Below are positions 7,674-11,438 of a stretch of DNA of 41,489 bases, one piece after another. The notes under the pieces are model-generated. The model did not search any database and was not told where the DNA came from. It saw only the letters and a list, made by a program, of their open reading frames with translations. Where the stretch lies: contig VFJK01000065.1 in assembly GCA_009886125.1 (NCBI GenBank), positions 1 to 41,489 on the forward strand, read 5' to 3'. The DNA comes from Geobacter sp. (lineage in GTDB: Bacteria > Desulfobacterota > Desulfuromonadia > Geobacterales > DSM-12255). A program made the position numbers and the translations under genes. Each line of letters begins with the position of its first letter. The stretch's first letter is position 1.

Positions 7674-7695
7674 ATGAATACCTTTTTAGTAAATA

Positions 7696-7850
7696 CGTGA
7701 CAGTGAGGGCTGTTTCTCGCTACAACGCTTCCGCTTTAGCGTCGATGGAGGTTTGTTCGCCTGATGAGAAGATCAGCGGCACTATCAATTGTGGCAGCAT
7801 CTGGCCATGTGCTCCGGCTGTTTCCGCTCGAAAAAGCCCTCACTGTCACG
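7696..7850. repeat. Family A palindromic repeat, copy 1 (155 bp)
   Basis: The element is bounded by perfect 16-bp terminal inverted repeats, CGTGACAGTGAGGGCT at 7696-7711 and its complement at 7835-7850. The pairing continues inward with one mismatch and then TTTC/GAAA. The interior contains ACGCT-N8-AGCGT. The second copy (10178-10332) is the reverse complement at about 85% identity by eye, with no gaps. It encodes nothing convincing and no transposase is nearby, so it resembles a non-autonomous element. It fills the gap between rplI and hisI. Confidence 0.85.
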
Positions 7851-7866
7851 CATTCAGGTTTAAGAA

Positions 7867-7897
7867 AAAAGGCGGCACAGGTAATCCCGCACCGCCT
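7867..7897 (-). terminator. Intrinsic terminator after rplI
   Basis: Read on the minus strand, AAGGCGGTGCGGG pairs with CCTGTGCCGCCTT around an ATTA loop, with some G-T pairs, and is followed by TTTTTT. It begins about 26 bases after the rplI stop and ends the rpsF-rplI transcript. Confidence 0.85.
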
Positions 7898-7922
7898 TAT
7901 TTGTTATCAGTGATCGGTCAGT

Positions 7923-8369
7923 TTAATCAGCCTTGGTCACAACAACCTTGAACGCGGCACTGACTTCCGGGTGGATCTTGACAGGAACAGTATATTCACC
8001 GGTCTGCTTGATCGGGTCAGCCAGGTTGATCTTTTTACGATCGATATCAATGCCATGTGCCTTCAGCTGCTCGGCAAGTTCCATGTTGGTGACCGCTCCA
8101 AAAAGCTTCCCTTCGTCTCCGGCCTGATGAACCAGGTTCAGAACGATAGCATCGATCTTGGCGCCCAGTGCTTTTGCCAGTTCCGTCAGCTTGTTCTTTT
8201 TGTACTCAAGCTGCCTCTTGGCATGTTCGAGAGCTTTAGTGTTCTTCTCATTTGCCAGCAGCACAAAGCCTTTGGGGATGAGGTAGTTGCGGGCATAACC
8301 GGGAGCGACCTTTACGACGTCGCCGATAGAGCCCAGATTTTCAATGTTTTCCTGCAGAATAACTTTCAT
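7923..8369 (-). CDS. rplI: 50S ribosomal protein L9
   Basis: L9 binds 23S rRNA at the base of the L1 stalk and helps hold the reading frame. The protein has 148 residues, the usual length. The N-terminal RNA-binding domain begins MKVILQENIENLGSIGDVVKVAPGYARNYL-like and includes the conserved GYARNYLIPKG. A long connecting helix rich in Lys, Glu and Leu follows, then a C-terminal domain with GKLFGAVTN. GGAGGAAAC directly precedes the ATG. It is the last gene of the rpsF-rpsR-DUF2232-rplI unit and is followed by a clear terminator. Confidence 0.97.
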   Translation of the reverse strand: MKVILQENIENLGSIGDVVKVAPGYARNYLIPKGFVLLANEKNTKALEHAKRQLEYKKNKLTELAKALGAKIDAIVLNLVHQAGDEGKLFGAVTNMELAEQLKAHGIDIDRKKINLADPIKQTGEYTVPVKIHPEVSAAFKVVVTKAD

Positions 8370-8386
8370 GTTTCCTCCCAGCCTGG

Positions 8387-9331
8387 TTACAGGTTTTTTT
8401 GTTTAGGGGCTCTGAAATCGCCCCAGATATCGAATACTCCAAGAAACGCTATAGCAAGAACAAGATACGGCTGAAATGCGAGAACCAACCAGAATATTAC
8501 TCTTGCAAGTGAAGGTACTGAAACGCGCTGAAAAAAAGCCAGTACAACTGCCAGACCCTGCAACAGATAGATGAAACCTAAAACCACCAAAATATTGAGT
8601 GCTACCCTCTTCAGGTCGGGTTGCGGGACAATCATTGAAAAACCGGCGCCGATAAGTATCCAGACGGCTGCATCAGGGTTCCTGAAAGAAAGAAACGATT
8701 CAGGCTGAGGCAGCTGTGGAAGTCTTTTAGCTGCAAACCGGAACAATACTGTCAGGTTCAGTGCTGCCAGCAAGCCAAGTGAAACAAGCAGCAGTGCCGG
8801 AAAGACGCTTGCTATGAGATGCCCTGCCTGCCGTATGCCGCTCGTCAGCATGGCAAGGTCTTCCGCTGGCAGACTTTGCTTGCTGTAGATCCCTATAGCC
8901 TGTTCAACACTTGATTCGATCCCTTTGACGAGCAGTCCCTGAAGATCGACTCCTGTCCATGTTCCGTACGCAACAGCCAGTGCGACGATCAGTAGAAAAT
9001 CAATGCCGACCGAATATGCTGCTGACTTTGCCGCCCCTTTTCCCTGCATGTAGAACAGCGGCAGCAGAAACCCTATCAAGCCGGACTGCATGACATAGAG
9101 GAGCGGAGCCGCCCCGTCCTGCATGAAGACAAGTACTGACAGGGTTATTGCAAATACGCCTGCTCCGGCTACCGCTCCATGCCTGATGTGTAAATAGATT
9201 GCAGGGAGCGGGACAAAAAGGCCGGGTAGAAGTCCGATTACCGGAAATGTCACGTAAGCAAGGAAGAGGGCCAGTGTCAGGACTCCACCTTTGATTGCAT
9301 CGAGCGCTAGCTCTCTGCTAGGCGTGATCAT
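8387..9331 (-). CDS. DUF2232 (YybS-like) multi-pass membrane protein
   Basis: This 314-residue protein consists largely of hydrophobic helices, eight or nine by eye, spread from residue 10 to about 300, with short polar loops. The pattern and the position between rpsR and rplI match the DUF2232/YybS family, which sits in this block in many Firmicutes and Deltaproteobacteria. The biochemical role is unknown. Similarity to ECF-type S components has been suggested for the family, which I cannot test here. The start ATG at 9331 lies 12 bases after the rpsR stop and has only a weak Shine-Dalgarno, so coupling to rpsR is likely. Confidence 0.8.
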   Translation of the reverse strand: MITPSRELALDAIKGGVLTLALFLAYVTFPVIGLLPGLFVPLPAIYLHIRHGAVAGAGVFAITLSVLVFMQDGAAPLLYVMQSGLIGFLLPLFYMQGKGAAKSAAYSVGIDFLLIVALAVAYGTWTGVDLQGLLVKGIESSVEQAIGIYSKQSLPAEDLAMLTSGIRQAGHLIASVFPALLLVSLGLLAALNLTVLFRFAAKRLPQLPQPESFLSFRNPDAAVWILIGAGFSMIVPQPDLKRVALNILVVLGFIYLLQGLAVVLAFFQRVSVPSLARVIFWLVLAFQPYLVLAIAFLGVFDIWGDFRAPKQKNL

Positions 9332-9343
9332 CAGAGCAGTGAC

Positions 9344-9619
9344 CTACGGTAGAACGTGCGTGCCGGCAATCGGGAGAAGAGCGATGTTACGAGCTCTCTT
9401 AATTGCTTCTGTAATCTCTCTCTGGTGCTTGGAGCAGTTTCCGGAGATCCTGCGCGGAACGATCTTGCCGCGTTCTGTTATGAAGTAGCGAAGGGTGCGT
9501 GGATCTTTGTAATCAATACCTACCTGCTTGTCTGCACAGAAACGGCAGACTTTTCTGCGCTGAAAAGGTCTTTTCTTCCTTGGCCCGCTTGGGCGCTGCG
9601 AACTTCTTTCGTCACTCAT
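9344..9619 (-). CDS. rpsR: 30S ribosomal protein S18
   Basis: S18 binds the platform of the 30S subunit together with S6, and its gene lies next to rpsF as usual. The protein has 91 residues with a basic N-terminal extension ([10 protein letters not shown]). The CRFC and CSKH motifs form a possible zinc-binding set, so this is the Cys-containing (C+) version of S18. The conserved core [18 protein letters not shown] and the C-terminal [15 protein letters not shown] are clear. GGAGG lies ten bases before the ATG. Confidence 0.97.
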
Positions 9620-9640
9620 TGTATATATGCCTCCGTCAGT

Positions 9641-10012
9641 TTACTCGTTTTCAGATGCAGCTTCCTCAGCAGGAGCTGTCTCTTCGGCCTCAACCGGCTT
9701 TGCCGGTGCAGCAGTCACTGTGTCTTTGTCCAGCTTGACGGTCTGGTAACGGATTACCCGGTCATCAAGGCGGAGACGACGCTCCAGCTCTGCAATCAGT
9801 GCTGCATCTCCATCGGTGCGAAGATACATGTAGCGGCCACGGGCGAGCTTGTCGATAGGGTAGGCAAGTTTGCGAATGCCCCAATCTTCAAGTTTTCTGA
9901 CGTCACCATTCATCTTTTCGATGACTTCGTTGATCCTGGTGGTGAGAGCTTTATTCTCTTCATCAGCCAGATCCGGTTTGACGATATAAATCGTCTCGTA
10001 CATCCTGATCAT
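9641..10012 (-). CDS. rpsF: 30S ribosomal protein S6
   Basis: S6 forms a heterodimer with S18 on the 30S platform. The 123-residue product has the S6 core (MYETIYIVKPDL near the start, then IRKLAYPI and GRYMYLR) and an acidic, Ala/Glu-rich tail from about 100 onward. The ATG at 10012 is eight bases after GAGGAGG, a better fit than the second Met three codons in. It is the first gene of the unit. The 330 bases upstream hold hairpins that could be an S6:S18-binding autoregulatory leader, and beyond them a family-A repeat. Confidence 0.97.
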   Translation of the reverse strand: MIRMYETIYIVKPDLADEENKALTTRINEVIEKMNGDVRKLEDWGIRKLAYPIDKLARGRYMYLRTDGDAALIAELERRLRLDDRVIRYQTVKLDKDTVTAAPAKPVEAEETAPAEEAASENE

Positions 10013-10140
10013 TTATGAAACCTCCTCACGGTTTATGTTTCGCGTCTTGGCTGCGAAAACAGTTAGCCCCGGTCCCACCCGGAGCAAGGAGAAGCGGCCC
10101 CAATGGCCACTCGTAGGAATCGTAACTTTTAGCATAACTG
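10013..10140 (-). promoter_or_regulatory. rpsF leader with two hairpins (possible S6:S18 autoregulatory site)
   Basis: On the minus-strand RNA, GCTCCGG and CCGGGGC (10066-10085) pair in a 7-bp stem with one G-U, closing GTGGGA. Nearer the start codon, TTTCGC and GCGAAA (10038-10058) pair around nine bases. Then comes GAGGAGG. Many bacteria control rpsF through a leader stem with a CCG element bound by S6:S18. The first hairpin has CCG in its 3' arm, but I cannot confirm that it matches that motif. The rest of the stretch up to 10169 shows nothing definite. Confidence 0.35.
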
Positions 10141-10169
10141 TACATGAAAAACAAGAACTTAATGTATCA

Positions 10170-10340
10170 CCTGAATCCGTGACAGTGAGGGTCTTTTCGA
10201 GCGGAAACAGCCGGGGCACATGGCCAGATGTTGCCAAAATCGATAGTGCCGCTGATTTTCTCCAAAGCTGAACAAACCGTTGCCGACGCAGAAGCAGAGG
10301 CGTTGCAGCGAGAAAGAGCCCTCACCGTCACGGATTCAGG
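10170..10340. repeat. Family A palindromic repeat, copy 2 (inverted relative to copy 1)
   Basis: The 155-bp core (10178-10332) is the reverse complement of the copy at 7696 with about 24 differences and no gaps. The inverted ends extend outward here to 22 bp, CCTGAATCCGTGACAGTGAG at the left and its near-complement at the right, with one position pairing as G-U in RNA. Copy 1 keeps the ATTCAGG extension only on its right side. This copy starts right after the ychF stop and may serve as its terminator. Confidence 0.85.
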
Positions 10341-10343
10341 ATA

Positions 10344-11438
10344 TCAGACATTGAACCGGAAATGCATGACATCACCGTCCTGAACGGTATATTCCTTGCC
10401 TTCGAGGCGCATGAGCCCTTTTTCCTTTGATCCTGACTCTCCGCCCGAAGCGATGTAGTCGTTGAAGGCGATGACCTCGGCACGGATAAAGCCTTTTTCA
10501 AAGTCGCTGTGAATGACTCCCGCAGCCTGAGGAGCTTTTGTCCCTTTGGTAATGGTCCAGGCTCGTACCTCTTTTACCCCTGCGGTAAAGTAGGTGATAA
10601 GTCCGAGAAGCTCATAGCCTGAACGGATAAGGCGGTCCAGGCCGGACTCTGCCAGCCCCATTCCGGCAAGAAACTCACTTTTCTCATGTCCATCAAGCTC
10701 TGATATCTCAGCTTCGATCTTCCCACAGATGGTGACAATGCGGGCACCTTCCTTTGCGGCGATTTCCGCAACCTTGGCAACAAAAGGGTGCTTTCCTTCC
10801 AGATCGTCCTCGGACACATTGGCAACATACAGAACAGGCTTGTCCGTCAAGAGGCACATATCTCTCAAAGTGATACGTTCGTCCTCGCTATCAGCCAGAC
10901 CAAGTGCCGGCTTGCCGGCTTCGAGAGTCTTTTTTACTTTCTGGCAGAACTCGTTATCTTCCTTCGCTTTTGTGTCACCGCTCCTGGCCAGCTTTTCACC
11001 CCTCAGCAATCTTTTCTCGACGGTATCAAGATCAGCAAGAGCAAGCTCAAGCTGGATTACCTCGATATCCCTCTCAGGGTTCACGCTGCCGTCTACGTGC
11101 ACGACATTATCATCGTCAAAGCAGCGGACAACATGGACGATCGCATCGACTGCCCGGATATGCCCCAGAAACTTGTTTCCAAGGCCCTCTCCCTGACTTG
11201 CTCCTTTTACAAGGCCGGCAATATCGACAAACTCTATCGTTGTAGGAAGTATTCTCTCGGGAATTACAATCTCAGCAAGCTGCTGAAGTCTCGGGTCCGG
11301 AACCTGTACTATACCGACATTCGGGTCGATGGTGCAGAAAGGGTAGTTGGCGGATTCTGCGCCTGCCGAGGTCAGAGCATTGAAAATAGTTGATTTGCCC
11401 ACATTTGGAAGTCCTACTATGCCGCAGTTAAAGCCCAT
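10344..11438 (-). CDS. ychF: YchF/Obg-family ATPase
   Basis: YchF is a ribosome-associated P-loop protein of the Obg family that prefers ATP to GTP, and is linked to oxidative stress responses. The 364-residue length is normal. The P-loop GLPNVGKST is at residues 9-17, with switch region [12 protein letters not shown]. The [14 protein letters not shown] stretch is G3. The G4 position reads NVSE instead of NKxD, as in other YchF proteins, explaining the loss of guanine specificity. A C-terminal TGS domain (about 280-364) ends [21 protein letters not shown] lies upstream of the ATG. The pth stop is 14 bases away, so the two are co-transcribed. Confidence 0.97.

Follow-up and report, generated by a model that had tools for sequence, protein, structure and literature searches.

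A dispersed 171-bp palindromic repeat flanking rpsF-rplI in a Geobacter genome, probably a MITE-like element

Prokaryotic miniature inverted-repeat transposable elements (MITEs) are described as intergenic stem-loop sequences of less than 500 bp, with terminal inverted repeats, direct repeats around some copies and a typically AT-rich composition (PMC10969869). One such element, Chunjie of Geobacter uraniireducens, is known from one plus 37 further elements of 178–235 bp, and multicopy palindromic families whose function is unknown were noted in earlier papers on Geobacter genomes (PMC2700814, PMC2996986). The repeat family analysed here came to light in contig VFJK01000065.1 of a Geobacter sp. 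(assembly GCA_009886125.1, positions 1 to 41,489; we call this whole stretch of 41,489 nucleotides the window), where two copies in opposite orientation stand on either side of the genes rpsF-rpsR-DUF2232-rplI. Like the described MITEs, the family is short, intergenic and able to form a stem-loop, and it has terminal inverted repeats, with direct repeats around some copies. We consider it likely that each copy is a non-autonomous, MITE-like DNA transposon of about 171 bp, with CCTGAATCCGTGAC terminal inverted repeats and no gene of its own.

TA target duplications are made by ERIC, Correia/NEMIS and RUP, against 5 bp in our family, and the bcr1–bcr3 repeats are comparable to it in size. As described, ERIC, Correia/NEMIS and RUP are likewise palindromic and intergenic, at roughly 100–200 bp; bcr1–bcr3, from the Bacillus cereus group in another phylum, are likewise MITE-like, intergenic and often inside transcripts (PMC3446304). 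REP/RAYT palindromes measure 20–40 bp and are tagged GTAG or CGTC (PMC3733652), whereas our elements measure 171 bp and end in CCTGAAT. The 'multicopy nucleotide sequences' of G. metallireducens and G. bemidjiensis (PMC2700814, PMC2996986) are likewise intergenic palindromic families from the same order, compared here by description only. Chunjie, also compared by description only, resembles our 171-bp family in its host (a Geobacter relative), its intergenic place and its copy number, and differs from it in length; our family is probably not Chunjie.

Unlike typical MITEs, the family combines paired stem changes, a conserved inner core and a strand that follows replication, and no parent insertion sequence (IS) was found in the 1.85 Mb scanned. 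In the literature searched, four end and core strings of the family were not found, and no account that we recognised stood among the papers on Geobacter repeats, Chunjie and strand-biased MITEs. The class of element is familiar; the family itself is spread through the order under no name found in that literature. It now has a defined unit, with ends, duplications, a structure model and copy lists in many genomes. To a specialist, paired stem changes together with a strand bias are surprising, and they raise the question of why a small DNA transposon keeps a single-strand fold and follows the replication fork.

Copies, element-free sites and target duplications

The original prediction took the window pair for members of one family, perhaps a non-autonomous element or a structured RNA unit, and proposed to look for many intergenic copies, target duplications, empty sites in relatives and covariation; all four were found. 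A single family is borne out by a search with the core motif TCGAACGGAAACAGCCGGGGC (≤3 mismatches), which finds 46 copies in the 3.57-Mb draft genome of the Geobacter sp. (G000), 23 per strand, and none with the reversed control pattern. Most copies lie in or at intergenic gaps. A covariance model, R1, built from 55 copies (alignment A1), matches 48 places in G000, 11 in the relative G003 (one partial, 81% complete) and 5 in G002. Left out of A1 were five odd-length copies among the 46 motif copies and one G003 copy cut by a contig end (L081). A1 also lacks three G000 and two G003 copies that came up with the model but not with the motif. In G001, a genome 78% complete, R1 finds nothing and a broader model, R2, one match.

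Across the order, 37 of 141 genomes hold full-length relatives by R2 (E≤1e-4), scoring being capped at 19 candidates per genome. A fuller search of three complete genomes yielded 38, 45 and 31 rows at E≤0.001, among which are second-strand and partial rows. G035 has no R1 match at E≤0.01 and is not among the R2 matches listed at E≤1e-4. A named-genome search with the exact two-part motif returned 6 stretches in three Geobacter-type assembled genomes. The same motif was absent from viral contigs (the phage-record collection was not searched), and against plasmids the G000 copy query was unmatched and the consensus query gave one chance-level match (E 0.5). In Rfam, only a tRNA elsewhere in the window reached the gathering threshold and the element was unmatched; down to E 1, four loci gave two weak miRNA matches, both outside the element, and sixteen loci gave no match.

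Element-free sites in relatives, terminal repeats and target duplications, together with the number of copies, support the non-autonomous element that had been predicted. At the site of the copy between rplI and hisI (copy 1), G003 has 14 nt between the flanking alignments and no copy; at the site of the copy between rpsF and ychF (copy 2), it has a different palindromic repeat in place of the element, and it carries the whole ribosomal cassette. G002 also has the cassette and lacks copy 1, and its contig does not let the second site be judged. The repeat in the rpsF-ychF gap of G003 (contig C160, L096/L102) contains the palindrome GACGTAGCAGCGCTACGTC and resembles a 24-copy family described in PMC2700814.

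For 12 further copies we looked for the flanking sequence in five relatives; 9 sites could be resolved, which makes 28 site-relative pairs. In none of the 28 was the core or stem motif present. In one gap the 13-nt terminal repeat is loosely matched, and other short inverted repeats stand in some. The clearest element-free site is that of L057, where G003 has GTAA between the stop codon and the next ATG. In the matching gap of G001 (L143), a different palindrome (gggcactaggctctagg..cctagtgccc) stands directly after the same stop codon. We also considered the stem as an insertion target rather than part of the element, an idea suggested by stems that differ between copies and by one stem that houses different cores; the resolved sites in relatives hold no such stem, and we rejected it.

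Terminal inverted repeats like CCTGAATCCGTGAC recur at the ends of copies across genera. As a duplication we counted a 5-bp direct repeat just outside C-CTGAATCC...GGATTCAG-G, at one offset. Exact duplications flank 6 of 40 copies from other genera (shuffle mean 0.24, maximum 2) and 3 of 45 in G000 (mean 0.15, maximum 2). With up to one mismatch the counts rise to 12 of 40 (mean 1.03, maximum 4) and 11 of 45 (mean 1.37, maximum 5), respectively. By inspection, the length of the interior varies by single bases from copy to copy, so that the copies share no reading frame and hold no gene.

In the mechanism that we favour, a transposase supplied in trans would make a 5-nt staggered cut and place the element in intergenic sequence, in many cases close to a stop codon. 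Duplications of 5 bp together with ends that start in C are known from IS families such as IS1634. Movement may need, or at least tolerate, the folded form of one strand, in which a 24-bp outer stem is followed by a core helix with purine mismatches and a variable tip of ~73 nt.

Fold, covariation and replication strand

On the folding strand, the outer stem has 24 pairs and leads into the core helix, in which 8 purine-purine positions and a single bulged A interrupt 14 Watson-Crick pairs (we picked the pairs by hand from the consensus), and then into a tip of ~73 nt whose sequence varies between copies and whose length is nearly constant in most. The 8 purine-purine positions, picked from the consensus, are retained in 45–55 of the 55 copies. 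In the same 55 copies double changes occur at all 24 outer pairs (187 cells), a result that 0 of 500 shuffles reach and that collapses in slid controls; the stem cells, like the G.U cells below, are not independent, and p-values are only a guide. A wider alignment (A3) of 42 copies, comprising 35 of the 40 other-genera matches and 7 copies from G000, G002 and G003, has double changes at 13 of 15 outer pairs. At the inner 16 pairs of 51 copies (four off-register rows omitted), G.U outnumbers A.C by 57 to 14 on the folding strand, A.C being what G.U becomes on the other strand; in the 35 other-genera copies the counts are 24 to 12 (p 0.065). By RNA folding energy, the forward strand is the favoured one in 33 of 41 G000 copies, but in only 17 of 40 from other genera.

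One copy, in the gatC-gatA gap, is common to G003 and G005. Its core halves are identical over ~30 nt each, its interior is much diverged, and one C-G pair has changed to T-A in a compensatory manner. By both models it is the sole copy in G005, where its contig, 3,996 bp long and part of a metagenome bin, may be mis-binned. The same gap differs among G000–G003, G005, G007, G009 and G010 (L115–L121, L123), with varied palindromic and tandem repeats, as if it were a hot spot (judged by eye).

Copies follow the direction of replication and not that of genes. With arcs fitted to GC skew in 20 windows per genome, and not to the elements, most copies lie on the minus strand within the G-rich arc and on the plus strand within the other. 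This holds for 23 of 25 copies in G125 (Fisher 3.5e-5), 14 of 17 in G054 (0.028) and 30 of 37 in G128 (3.3e-4), or 67 of 79 in the three complete genomes together; matches below 50 bits and second-strand matches of the same place are excluded from these tables. Gene direction does not readily explain the bias, because the coding strand varies widely between windows of the same genomes. Between co-directional genes of G000, 16 copies are sense and 14 antisense by crude calls of open reading frames (ORFs). In other genomes the counts are 9 and 10; of 39 copies there, the 13 that overlap an ORF call were not counted, which leaves 26. The bias could come either from fork-coupled insertion into single-stranded DNA or from the loss of copies with the more stable hairpin on the lagging-strand template; the data do not separate the two.

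Points against a transposon, and rival explanations

Several results weigh against our preferred reading of the family as a MITE-like transposon. An exact target duplication is missing from most copies (42 of 45 in G000, 34 of 40 elsewhere), and the duplication length and offset were picked once the flanks had been viewed in both sets (24 settings tried in each), so that neither set is an independent check. A longer relative with the same ends around a transposase was absent from the 1.85 Mb scanned, which is a small part of the genomes. The G+C content of 45 family matches is 54–72%, which is not AT-rich. The strand bias in G000 has the same direction as elsewhere at 32 of 49 rows (48 model matches and one truncated copy; p 0.044), rows on one contig not being independent, and a strand-switch test that needs no arc model is extreme only in G125 (8 of 20,000 shuffles), being weak in G128 (848) and G054 (1,244). 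Finally, a decaying insertion should show neither so much covariation nor a conserved core next to a diverged interior, and a function in place remains compatible with both.

Such a function is the essence of the first rival, in which the repeat is a structured RNA kept for a job in place, as a hairpin that serves processing or stability at 3' ends and in operon gaps, and only rarely copied around. We regard this as possible but unlikely. The stem covariation, the G.U excess and the retained purine-purine positions all favour it, as does the gatC-gatA copy with its compensatory change. So does the closeness of 21 of the 46 copies in G000 to a stop codon (within ~10 nt, by crude ORF calls). However, both gene-relative directions are about equally common, the excess of G.U over A.C is similar in the two orientations (15 to 4 for sense copies, 16 to 6 for antisense ones), and the element is absent from all resolved test sites in relatives. 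In addition, the mis-binning that may affect the G005 copy, the dependence between G.U cells and the weaker excess in other genera all take some weight from the favourable points. The structured unit of the original prediction is supported, and its RNA reading is partly right. A riboswitch-like cis-regulatory RNA does not fit, since the fixed gene orientation it calls for is not seen in the sense and antisense counts given above.

A second alternative, which we offer tentatively, is a transposon family whose members are read at the replication fork in the form of a folded single strand. The shape of the hairpin, and not the sequence of the stem, would be recognised, fork direction would govern insertion or survival, and the core could be exchanged or flipped within a constant stem, as in the pairs L017/L060 and L070/L051 described below.

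Single-strand transposition by an HUH enzyme (IS200/RAYT-like), as for REP sequences, appears improbable. It would suit the strand bias, and Y1_Tnp matches occur in G000 (one) and G002 (two). On the other hand, none was found in G003, which has 11 model matches, and the fetched flanks of the three Y1 loci hold no core or stem motif. To our knowledge, IS200/605 and RAYT elements make no target duplication, which also counts against this rival.

We find it very improbable that the family is a retro-element, that is, a folded RNA copied by a reverse transcriptase primed at replication forks, similar to a bacterial short interspersed nuclear element. The single-strand structure and the strand bias would agree with this, and G050, with 19 scored copies, has one reverse-transcriptase domain. 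Yet the reverse-transcriptase domain PF00078 was found in none of the five copy-rich genomes G000, G028, G054, G125 and G128, and the 5-bp duplications point to a staggered cut in DNA.

Hardly credible, in spite of the inverted arrangement, the 85% identity and the mutual closeness of the window copies, is the suggestion in the original prediction that the pair forms the functional ends of a composite transposon carrying rpsF-rpsR-DUF2232-rplI, given that G003 has the whole cassette with neither copy and G002 has it without copy 1.

The window pair and odd copies

The flanking of the ribosomal cassette is a coincidence, which the original prediction had allowed for; besides the cassette without copies in G003, other close pairs occur in G000, e.g. 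C148:6063/7979 and C143:27686/29273. We suppose that the window copies are ordinary members of the family that landed, or hopped, near each other. Within G000, BLAST makes each the nearest relative of the other (85%; next best by score 75%), which makes a hop over a short range, or gene conversion, likely.

The positions of the pair and of its parts are given in Table 1. The predicted repeat, one element present twice in opposite orientation at ~85% identity without gaps, agrees with both the inverted-repeat search, in which the pair is the longest inverted repeat (85% complementary, ungapped), and BLAST of copy 1 against its own genome, which matched copy 2 at 85% (E 3e-48). The 155-bp unit then proposed is real, though it is only the inner part of an element whose full length we set at 171 bp from the terminal repeats and target duplications of the wider family. 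Similarly, the ATTCAGG extension noted at three of the four ends is the terminal repeat (CCTGAAT), which copy 2 has whole on both sides and copy 1 on one side; its absence from the other end of copy 1 (AGTAAATACG) is better read as decay of the repeat than as a different insertion history. Copy 1 has no clear target duplication (TTAAA against AAAAA). The G+C content of the two copies is 53–55%.

Table 1. Features of the two window copies and their surroundings; for whole copies, the strand is the folding strand
Feature	Position	Strand	Context or remark	Basis
Copy 1, 171 bp	7688..7858	-	between rplI terminator and hisI	inverted-repeat search, BLAST, model match
Copy 2, 171 bp	10170..10340	+	between rpsF and ychF, 3 nt from ychF stop codon	
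Longest inverted repeat, 168 nt	7692-7859 vs 10169-10336			repeat search
Covariance-model matches	7689-7857 and 10171-10339			
5' arm of outer stem, copy 2	10170..10194	+	begins with terminal repeat CCTGAATCCGTGAC	
3' arm of outer stem, copy 2	10316..10340	+		
Conserved 5' core, copy 2, TCGAGCGGAAACAGCCGGGGC	10197..10217	+	one mismatch to motif	
Conserved 3' core, copy 2, GAAGCAGAGGCGTTGCAGCGAGAAA	10291..10315	+		
Conserved 5' core, copy 1	7811..7831	-	two mismatches to motif	
Probable left target duplication, copy 2, TATCA	10165..10169	+		read from sequence
Probable right target duplication, copy 2, TATCA	10342..10346	+	one-base offset from the family's usual place	read from sequence
Inverted repeat and T tract, read as intrinsic terminator of rplI	7862..7898	-		sequence reading
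Family ends as written for a search, CCTGAATCC...GGATTCAGG				

The gene reading rpsF-rpsR-DUF2232-rplI was right, with hisG, hisI and ychF as neighbours, and all seven genes (hisG, hisI, rplI, DUF2232, rpsR, rpsF and ychF) are on the minus strand. G002 and G003 have a terminator structure like that of rplI in the window, which the insertion of copy 1 appears, from the sequence, to leave intact.

Some copies are odd in ways that a simple MITE does not account for. L017 and L060 lie in paralogous segments and have the same stem with different cores in opposite direction, and L070 (G002) and L051 (G000) share a gap, point in opposite directions and have similar unusual stems. Gap and direction are common to L086 and L009, whose interiors are of different species-specific types, and to L081 and L013, the interior of L081 being cut off by the contig end. 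Together with the gatC-gatA copies, these pairs speak for in-place inversion, gene conversion or selection in place.

In four G000 copies (L012, L015, L019 and L061) the interior has been replaced or invaded by other palindromic repeats, e.g. CCCCTCTAAATCTCCCCTTGTCAGGGG. Two core-less palindromes in G000, at C174:18876-18915 and C94:11278 (L109, L111), consist of the outer stem alone and probably arose by deletion between two GTGAGAG repeats, one in the 5' arm and the other in the 3' core. Shorter elements of ~60–85 bp with the same kind of terminal repeats occur in G128 near 1.55 Mb (L245) and in G054 near 0.11 Mb (L259). Apart from the family, G035 has 18 reverse-transcriptase matches on contig C1, of which the 10 on the plus strand all lie below 2.6 Mb and 7 of the 8 on the minus strand above 2.7 Mb, a distribution that looks like a replication-strand pattern.

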